DNA of 64,000 nt from Rhodanobacter sp. OK091 (GTDB lineage Bacteria > Pseudomonadota > Gammaproteobacteria > Xanthomonadales > Rhodanobacteraceae). Shown here piece by piece: positions 9,059-10,989 of this stretch. The notes under the pieces are model-generated. The model did not search any database. It was not told the DNA's origin and saw only the letters and a list, made by a program, of their open reading frames with translations. The DNA lies in assembly GCF_900142825.1 (NCBI RefSeq), contig NZ_FRCH01000004.1, forward strand, positions 124,001 through 188,000. The letters are read 5' to 3'. A program made the translations under genes and the position numbers. How positions within the stretch are numbered: the first letter of the stretch is position 1; each line of letters starts with the position of its first letter.

Positions 9059-9769
9059 ATGTCGAATCCCTTACAAGGTGCGCAGTTTGTGCTCGCTGCC
9101 CACCGCATCAGCCAGCTTCCCGCCGATCAGGGCGCGGAGGTGGCGTTTGCCGGCCGCTCCAACGCCGGCAAGTCCAGCGCGCTGAATGCGTTGACCAATC
9201 ACAAGGGGCTGGCACGCACTTCCAAGACCCCTGGCCGCACCCAGCAGATGGTCGCGTTCAGCCTGCCGCCGTACAAGGATGTACCAGTGTCGCGGGCGCA
9301 GGATGCGCAGGAGCGACCGCCGCCGGCCCAGGTCGATGGTCAGCCACCGTCGGATGTACGCCTGATCGACTTGCCCGGCTATGGCTACGCCAAGGTGCCG
9401 CTGGAGATGCGCGAACACTGGAAGCTCGAGATCGACGCGTACCTGCATCAGCGCCGCAGCCTGCGTGGGCTGGTGCTGATCGTCGACATCCGCCATCCGC
9501 TGAAGGAGTTCGACCGGCAGATGCTGGAGTTCTGCTTCGCCACCCAGCTGCCATGCCACCTGCTGCTGACCAAGGCCGACAAGCTCTCGCGCGGCCAGGC
9601 CACGCAGGCGCTGGCCACCTTGCGCAAGCAGTTCGCCGCCGAAGGCCTGCATGCCACCGCGCAGATCTTCTCCTCCTCCGCCGGCACCGGCGTGGAGGAA
9701 GCCCGGCAGGCAGTGATGACGCTGCTGCGGCAGCCGCGGGAAGGCGCCCATCAAGACCGCGAACGCTGA
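9059..9769 (+). CDS. engB: Ribosome biogenesis GTPase EngB/YihA/YsxC
   Basis: The 236-residue TRAFAC GTPase is needed for 50S subunit assembly. G1 is GRSNAGKSS (32-40), switch region KTPGRTQQ, G3 DLPGYGYA, G4 TKAD and G5 SSSAGTG. Compared with the usual 200-210 residues it is long, because a Pro/Gln-rich insertion of about 20 residues (SRAQDAQERPPPAQ and after) lies between switch I and G3. The ATG at 9059 is the first Met and fits the family N-terminus. It is divergent from the cytochrome c4 gene, and its 3' end runs into the composite palindromic element that starts 14 bp later. Confidence 0.95.
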   Translation: MSNPLQGAQFVLAAHRISQLPADQGAEVAFAGRSNAGKSSALNALTNHKGLARTSKTPGRTQQMVAFSLPPYKDVPVSRAQDAQERPPPAQVDGQPPSDVRLIDLPGYGYAKVPLEMREHWKLEIDAYLHQRRSLRGLVLIVDIRHPLKEFDRQMLEFCFATQLPCHLLLTKADKLSRGQATQALATLRKQFAAEGLHATAQIFSSSAGTGVEEARQAVMTLLRQPREGAHQDRER

Positions 9770-9936
9770 CAGAGATCATTGTTGTAGGAGCCCGCTGGCG
9801 GGCGACGCCCTTGCTCTTGCTCTTTGGTGGTTGATTTGAAGCGAAGAGCTTTCGTGCGCCGTTGGCGCCCGAGTTACTTTCTCTTTGTGTGGCCAAAGAG
9901 AAAGGTAACCAAAGAGAAAGGCCACCCCGCTTGGCG

Positions 9937-10035
9937 CTTGCCGGGCTCCTGCCCGGCAAGTCCGTGAGCCGGGGCCGGGCTTTTCGACAGGGCATCCTGC
10001 CCTGGCGAAAAGGAGTCGACATCCCTGTCGACTCC
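9937..10035 (-). other. Three adjacent minus-strand hairpins with GGA loops
   Basis: On the minus strand three stem-loops follow one another. 9937-9960: a perfect 10-bp stem with loop AGGA. 9980-10012: 7-bp stem CAGGGCA/TGCCCTG with loop GGA, extended by 7 more pairs (CTTTTCG/CGAAAAG) after one mismatch. 10012-10035: a 10-bp stem with loop GGGA, giving ACAGGGATGT. The stems differ in sequence but each is self-complementary, and the loop is conserved. Known CsrA/RsmA sites are GGA in a hairpin loop within RUACARGGAUGU. RNA would come from read-through of msrC. Confidence 0.55.
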
Positions 10036-10158
10036 CGCTGCGCGGCCTGTCGTCCCCGTCTCACCGCCGCACAGGGGCCCCGGTAGAGCAGCGGGCCTTC
10101 GTGGCCCGCACTCGGTGAAAAGCTGAGGCGAAGCATCGCTCTGGCTCTTCTGAACAGT

Positions 10159-10331
10159 ACGCGCAGGAGGCGCGTTGCTTTACCGGGGCCCCTCTGAAGC
10201 GGCGGGTGGGTGAAGGAAAGCCCGCAGGGTGGTCGGCACGGATGCCGGCCAGTTTGGCGTCAGCACAGGATGTGCTGTCGACAAACCCCGTAACCCACCC
10301 GCGGACTTTGCGGGCAGGGATGCCCGCAAAG
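10159..10331 (+). other. Four plus-strand hairpins with GGA loops
   Basis: On the plus strand: 10159-10175, stem ACGCGC/GCGCGT with loop AGGAG; 10231-10250, 8-bp stem GGTCGGCA/TGCCGGCC with loop CGGA; 10261-10277, stem CAGCACA/TGTGCTG with loop GGA, containing ACAGGATGT; 10306-10331, 11-bp stem CTTTGCGGGCA/TGCCCGCAAAG with loop GGGA. The last three have the form CA-(G/C)GGA-TG closed by different, compensating stems. They would be transcribed by read-through from engB. Confidence 0.55.
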
Positions 10332-10497
10332 CGCGTAAGCGGGGTGCCCCTCTCTTTGGTTACTTTCTCTCGGGCAAGCGAGAGAAAGTGACTCGCCCTC
10401 CGCAGGAGGACGAAAGCTCTTCGCTCTAGCTAATCAAAAGAGCCAGAGCATCGCCCGCGAGCGGGCTCCTACGCACAGTTGAGGAATCGCCGGGCGG

Positions 10498-10989
10498 TCA
10501 GCCGCGCACGGATTCCATGAACACCGTGCACAGCGCCTGCATGCCGGTGCGGTCGTCCTCGTCGAAGCGATCGATCACCGGGCTGTCGACATCCCACACG
10601 CCGAGCAGGCTGCCGTCGGCCTTGATCAGCGGCACCACGATTTCCGACTGCGAGGCGGCATCGCAGGCGATATGCCCGTCGAACGCATTGACGTCGCGCA
10701 CCAGCTGGGTCTCGCGCGTCTGCGCCGCGGTACCGCAGACGCCGCGGCCGAGCGCGATGCGGATGCACGCCGGCTTGCCCTGGAACGGACCGACCACCAG
10801 CTCATTGCCGTCGTACAAATAGAAGCCGGCCCAGTTGAGGTCGGGCAGGCTGTGGTAGATCAGTGCGCCGAAATTCGCCGCGTTCGCGATCAGATCGCGC
10901 TCGCCGGCGAGCAGGCCGCGCGCCTGCTGCGCTAGGTCTTCGTAGTGTTCGCGCTTGCTGGCATATGCGTGGGGCTTCAGTTCGAACAT
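10498..10989 (-). CDS. msrC: Free methionine-(R)-sulfoxide reductase (GAF domain)
   Basis: The 163-residue single GAF-domain enzyme reduces free Met-R-sulfoxide with thioredoxin. The three functional cysteines are present with family spacing: Cys75 in KPACIRI, Cys85 in GRGVCGT and Cys109 in HIACDAAS (10 and 24 residues apart, as in E. coli YebR/fRMsr). The ligand pocket motif VPLIKADGSLLGVWDVDSP is also intact. It is soluble and cytoplasmic, with no signal peptide. ATG 10989 is the only plausible start. It converges on engB across the composite palindromic element, and a TMEM175-like gene is divergent upstream. It probably protects the methionine pool from oxidation. Confidence 0.92.
   Translation of the reverse strand: MFELKPHAYASKREHYEDLAQQARGLLAGERDLIANAANFGALIYHSLPDLNWAGFYLYDGNELVVGPFQGKPACIRIALGRGVCGTAAQTRETQLVRDVNAFDGHIACDAASQSEIVVPLIKADGSLLGVWDVDSPVIDRFDEDDRTGMQALCTVFMESVRG

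Follow-up and report, generated by a model that had tools for sequence, protein, structure and literature searches.

The window analysed here is a 64,000-nt stretch of the genome of Rhodanobacter sp. OK091 (4.42 Mb in 11 contigs; G000). Within it, engB (9059–9769, plus strand) and a putative msrC (10498–10989, minus strand, named as in the original prediction) are open reading frames in convergent orientation, and the intergenic space between them holds a 689-bp imperfect palindrome (9784–10472), 15 nt before which engB ends. The palindrome is a single nested inverted repeat, with the left half approximating the reverse complement of the right half. Its outermost layer consists of two GTAG-type REP palindromes at 9784–9818 (GTAGGAGCCCGCTGGCGGGC...) and 10438–10472, which are 89% complementary; further in lie the layers 9840–9884/10381–10425, 9902–9946/10322–10366, 9948–9983/10283–10318, 9977–10007/10258–10288 and 10044–10098/10168–10222. 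From these nested repeats (I1–I6) and a family alignment, we delimited a left arm (A, alpha-ended; 9840–10118) with four hairpin positions, a right arm (B, beta-ended; 10146–10425) and a centre (10119–10145), which comparison with long-form copies marks as the site of cargo genes. The left arm also contains an outer hairpin (9856–9868), whose loop varies freely among copies in the comparison of Rhodanobacter arms and which served as an internal control, and an anchor hairpin (GTTACTTTCTCTTTG...CAAAGAGAAAGGTAAC; 9873–9909), the part that was found most widely when a 78-base query around it was used.

The original prediction had placed an array of seven GGA-loop hairpins at 9937–10331, between the convergent genes. 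All seven are there, each on the strand given for it, and the convergence of the genes holds; the true unit is larger, extending over 9784–10472, and the full palindrome had been overlooked, as had the repeat family, insertion behaviour and gene-carrying forms described below. On the minus strand, the left arm carries GGA hairpins at position 1 (9937–9960, loop C-AGGA-G) and position 2 (9980–10012, CA-GGA-TG), both seen in sequence, fold and family alignment, and at position 3 (10012–10035, CA-GGGA-TG), seen in the fold and belonging to the loop class tested for covariation; its position 4 hairpin (10091–10109, minus strand) has the loop CACGAAG, with CGA and without GGA, at a position that bears GGA or CGA in the family. 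On the plus strand, the right arm carries GGA hairpins in sequence and fold at position 4 (10159–10175), position 3 (10231–10250, CA-CGGA-TG), position 2 (10261–10277, CA-GGA-TG) and position 1 (10306–10331, CA-GGGA-TG; also matched by the hairpin model). In five of the seven, the loop is flanked by CA on its 5′ side and TG on its 3′ side, as predicted. Because the arms form one inverted repeat, the GGA loops lie on the minus strand at the left and on the plus strand at the right, in both arms on the strand that runs outwards from the centre; the two-strand arrangement is a consequence of the palindrome and not an independent feature. The stems had been called unrelated, but the hairpins of the two arms oppose each other at four homologous positions and so do not represent seven independent origins.

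The seven hairpins have energies of about −8 to −20 kcal/mol when each is folded alone. When the full-length RNA is folded (minimum energy −457 and −447 kcal/mol for the two strands), five of the seven form on each strand, as read by eye from the dot-bracket notation, and the outermost two (9937–9960 and 10306–10331) are lost to arm-to-arm pairing. Counting on both strands of 9937–10331, with stems of at least five Watson–Crick pairs, gave seven GGA loops against a mean of 0.18 and a maximum of 2 in 500 dinucleotide shuffles, none of which reached seven. With stems of at least six pairs, the element had six such loops, and 157 tiles of 395 nt from elsewhere in the window had a mean of 0.02 and a maximum of 1.

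Copies of the element are numerous. The genome of the window contains 17 near-full-length copies, the window’s included (at least 88% of a 697-base query). A further copy pairs two A-type arms around a different centre, and there are also three single arms and some fragments; by eye, most of the 17 aligned copies terminate in the GTAG-type REP or in a second REP type. Family matches were found in 44 of 45 genomes of the genus and in 55 of 199 genomes of the order, and the 78-base anchor query matched in 20 of 377 genomes of the class, the home genome being included each time. Only part of the candidates was scored per genome (16 for the genus, 3 for the order and at most 2 for the class), so copy numbers are lower bounds. 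The plasmid collection gave one match, in an Aeromonas caviae record (NZ_AP026896.1, 394353–397444; L277) that is 4.9 Mb long and labelled as a plasmid; the arm there is related and has one or more GGA-type loops.

Loop conservation was surveyed in 335 distinct arms (247 from Rhodanobacter and 88 from other genera, identical arms removed), using hairpins with stems of at least six Watson–Crick pairs on the centre-to-end strand. A GGA loop was present in 160 of the 203 distinct hairpins of Rhodanobacter arms, 152 of them as A(N)GGA, with TCC in none and CGA only in 18. For other genera the corresponding figures were 97 of 144, 93 of them A(N)GGA, with TCC in none, CGA only in 7 and TCG in 1; the two sets of hairpins may overlap in members and no sum was taken. 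The base N between A and GGA was absent, G, T, A or C, and GGA loops were borne by 46 different six-base stems in Rhodanobacter and 52 in the other genera. A 700-kb background, made up of the remainder of the window and 79 EngB loci, had GGA in 66 and TCC in 53 of 1132 distinct hairpins. Low divergence does not explain the constant GGA, since the outer-segment hairpin of the Rhodanobacter arms varies freely in its loop (45 distinct hairpins in 27 loop classes, one with GGA). CGA loops made up 4 of 134 at position 1 and 6 of 130 at position 2; at the innermost position, about 70 GGA and about 50 CGA loops among 171 binned hairpins (top 25 classes) indicate that GGA is not kept there. In distant genera, the interior of the element differs. 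A GGA-loop hairpin occurred in 8 of 18 distant anchor-bearing genomes and was absent from 10, by our own count in the stretches examined, and distinct hairpins of distant loci had GGA in 17 of 33 and TCC in 4 of 33, some of the TCC loops falling where the stretch enters the opposite arm. Motif finding missed several of these distant loci, and BLAST was used for a second look.

The stems under these loops compensate. Among 123 distinct 24-mers around CANGGATG, gathered with no demand on the stem, the inner five pairs were Watson–Crick in 116, 119, 121, 107 and 114. Covariation was judged by five measures on 30 hand-picked, mostly well-paired hairpins, drawn from 60 of the 123. Their covariation score reached 0.879, whereas shuffles gave 0.184 and slid controls no more than 0.178, and 111 cells against 37 were changed on both sides; two measures did not exceed shuffles in these 30 hairpins, namely pairs changed on both sides (8 against 7.5) and further pair types (20 against 18.2). 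Searching the home genome with a covariance model of the picked hairpins, with 150 of 2745 candidates scored, returned 64 matches with E up to 1, and 54 of the 55 with E < 0.05 lay inside family copies. The one outside (G000:C2:565868; L278) is a small hairpin pair 3′ of an open reading frame, with a GGA motif on the minus strand before a terminator-like hairpin. Comparison of the copies thus demonstrates A(N)GGA loops held constant on covarying stems at three of the four hairpin positions. Protein-coding constraint on the arms is unlikely; short open reading frames do cross the element, but the stem changes compensate.

The original prediction had taken conserved loops with compensating stems as a sign of selection on RNA structure. 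The conservation and compensation are there, but a wobble-pair test did not tell selection on RNA from selection on DNA: G·U would be favoured over A·C if selection acted on the GGA-strand RNA, and in GGA-strand stems the two mismatches were counted at 15:15, 27:16 (p = 0.13) and 20:13 (p = 0.30), showing no significant asymmetry and hence no proof of such selection.

Comparison of orthologous sites bears on how the copies arose. Relatives of the locus were collected by tblastn with EngB (159 loci, best 80 retained); in named genomes, the best EngB relatives belong to Rhodanobacter. The engB–msrC gap is often below 100 nt in these relatives and is 15 nt in L031, which has the closest EngB (97%); among the best 80, an arm match was found in L060 only. 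By eye, the gap of L037 is occupied by a bare pair of GTAG REPs in inverted orientation. At a second site, that of L153, a 2.5-kb form has a gene between two arms; the orthologous site is empty in L378, L380 and L382, with the flanks joined within about 30 nt, holds a closed palindrome in L372 and, by eye, a remnant in L377. Since one orthologous site is empty, closed or gene-carrying in different species, the element inserts. The flanks at the engB–msrC and L153 sites are too diverged for a target-site duplication to be defined by eye. The element is best explained as belonging to a palindromic repeat family, dispersed and able to insert, of Rhodanobacteraceae and their relatives, of which we recognised no description in the titles and abstract openings of a mainly open-access literature.

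Ten arm pairs with 1.1–3.9 kb between them were typed after duplicate loci had been dropped (two further pairs, L198 and L251, stand outside this count). In nine of them an alpha inner end faces a beta one, which is also how the closed form is oriented, and the exception, L147, has two beta ends; this shared polarity indicates that arms and cargo behave as a unit. Varied genes lie between the inverted arms of the long-form copies (L146–L153, L170 and L179). A scan of ten cargo proteins from eight loci (L146 and L152 left out) detected no transposase among them, and for six of the ten Pfam gave no match. Some of the cargo matches defence families, candidate or known: PDC-S19 in L179, PDC-S35/TIR in L151 and, in L147, Abi_C (with a weak match to AbiJ) and a NERD domain. 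By eye, the alpha ends of long forms (for example L148, L150 and L153) share a hairpin like CGCAACCGC-TGC-GCGGTTGCG, often with a motif like GTCTGCTATCGGCCAGAAGCGGCCGTT further in. At the locus of L151, which is conserved in the genus, arms or fragments were seen in many of 20 loci (L350–L369), including one in the home genome at C2:593.6 kb, which suggests an insertion hot spot or shared descent.

The home genome has a single CsrA gene, whose translation looks canonical on our own reading and has an arginine at position 44, which we take to be the critical position. CsrA was present in all 18 distant anchor-bearing genomes and in all 21 genomes of the relatives search, so that no element-bearing genome lacking CsrA was met among these. 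An arginine at the beta5/H1 interface is described as strongly conserved, and CsrA/RsmA-titrating RNAs as having several short hairpins that expose ANGGA (PMC7366521); the loop consensus of the family, A(N)GGA with N free, matches this published target. Of the interpretation originally proposed, the reading of the hairpins as CsrA/RsmA sites gains much from the conserved loops, the covarying stems, the consensus and the presence of CsrA; transcription and decoy action are inferred. No sigma-70-like promoter was found in 9600–10650 and no Rfam family reached its gathering threshold in the window, where the best CsrA-type lead, RsmW, scored 19.3 bits and would have needed 52, so that the element does not look like an RsmY/Z-type sRNA gene. 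We know of no classical Csr/Rsm sRNA in the lineage of this gammaproteobacterial family, for which our own scan covered the window.

Gene directions around closed copies (defined by inverted arms separated by under 350 nt, with duplicate loci dropped) were called with a home-made codon-usage scorer. The 87 closed copies comprised 29 in convergent, 36 in tandem and 5 in divergent settings and 17 without a call. With both neighbours called, 65 of 70 lay 3′ of at least one gene.

The best explanation, which we hold with moderate confidence, is a mobile palindrome whose read-through RNA would bind CsrA/RsmA. Read-through of a flanking gene, in this case engB on the left or msrC on the right, would yield a transcript bearing several CsrA/RsmA sites, since the plus strand has four GGA hairpins and the minus strand three; in long-form copies outward transcription of the cargo would do the same. 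CsrA dimers would then bind the hairpins, and the copies would jointly constitute a distributed CsrA sink, a CsrA-responsive 3′ UTR of the neighbouring gene, or both, each role being possible. The match to the A(N)GGA target, the CsrA gene, the placement 3′ of genes and the parallels with RsmU and Pseudomonas putida set out below point to CsrA binding as the likeliest cause of the conservation of the loops. Sequence evolution strongly suggests that copies, where transcribed, may soak up CsrA/RsmA.

The main rival is a role in mobility at the DNA level, whereby the hairpins would be extruded from single-stranded or supercoiled DNA and their A(N)GGA loops read by a recombinase or transposase, with RNA irrelevant. 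Hairpins guide IS200/IS605-type and integron recombinases, and several of our results suit such a role: the element inserts with its inverted arms as bounds, nine of ten cargo-bearing arm pairs enclose their genes with one alpha end and one beta end, and the wobble counts have no significant RNA-strand asymmetry. Yet no candidate enzyme emerged from the search for Y1_Tnp genes, of which the genome has one, and a link between this gene and the element would be conjectural. The way the loops vary, in length and in N while A(N)GGA stays, is also better fitted by a known RNA-binding protein than by a defined DNA site, and we consider the DNA-level role rather unlikely.

Less probable still, and in our view doubtful, is that the element is an ordinary REP/BIME-like 3′-end palindrome acting as terminator, RNase barrier or stabiliser of mRNA 3′ ends, its loops shared only through descent and gene conversion among copies. 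The GTAG REP ends, the very stable RNA fold and the mainly convergent or tandem placement, which is also that described for REPs (PMC3733652), would agree with this, but terminator-like sites number 2 against 1.0 expected, and descent leaves unexplained both the constant loops beside stems changed in both partners and the free loop of the neighbouring hairpin. That chance or base composition alone produced the array of GGA loops we reject as next to impossible, given that none of the 500 shuffles reached its count and that it is conserved in the genus and in other genera.

If, as we favour, CsrA binds RNAs of this family, a global post-transcriptional regulator would be under the influence of a mobile repeat with dozens of sites scattered over the genome. 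This would give a reason for conserved loops on drifting stems in an intergenic palindrome and a function to intergenic palindromes that are commonly regarded as junk, and the Rsm binding of ISPpu8-associated palindromes in Pseudomonas would become part of a wider pattern. A broader version, in which gammaproteobacterial mobile palindromes, some with candidate anti-phage cargo, form a distributed and transposable CsrA sponge with GGA on the transcripts that leave the element, we put forward tentatively, as a possibility well short of an even chance.

Among known systems, CsrB/C, RsmX/Y/Z and RsmU of Xanthomonas share with the element the possession of several hairpins with A(N)GGA loops. They are discrete RNAs, whereas the element is a multi-copy inserted palindrome with no recognisable promoter, no Rfam match and GGA hairpins on both strands. 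Xanthomonas is reported to have no homologues of the known Csr/Rsm sRNAs and to have RsmU, a 3′UTR-derived RNA that sequesters RsmA; RsmU has three or four GGA motifs, and altering all of them left RsmA binding not abolished (PMC7694677). A second parallel comes from P. putida KT2440, in which the RNAs bound by RsmA, RsmE and RsmI include those of ISPpu8-adjacent intergenic regions and of a ‘long palindromic region’ (PMC7937890). That region is, like the element, long, palindromic and linked to a mobile element; the likeness is one of description, and we saw no GGA array described there.

REP, BIME and REPIN sequences, which are mobilised by RAYT (PMC2817692 and PMC3733652), resemble the element in their GTAG palindromes in inverted end pairs and in their location on the 3′ side of genes, REPs being described as mainly convergent or tandem and 3′-sided (PMC3733652). 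In keeping with this feature, matches of 25–60 nt to the element’s ends are many elsewhere in the genome, often as inverted pairs. By eye, no GTAGGAGC was seen in the inspected parts of the surroundings of the one Y1_Tnp gene of the genome. REP-type sequences differ from the element in that its interior is a structured palindrome of about 600 bp with GGA hairpins. In many of the listed copies from other Rhodanobacter genomes, the match begins at about query position 55–60, without REP ends. REPs with a short spacer were rejected as a description of the whole unit, which has about 600 bp of arms inside that are also found REP-free. MITEs and other non-autonomous inverted-repeat elements share with it the inverted arms, the lack of a visible transposase and the occurrence of occupied and empty sites; compared with these, the element has arms of about 280 bp with several hairpins each, and forms that carry 1.1–3.9 kb of cargo.
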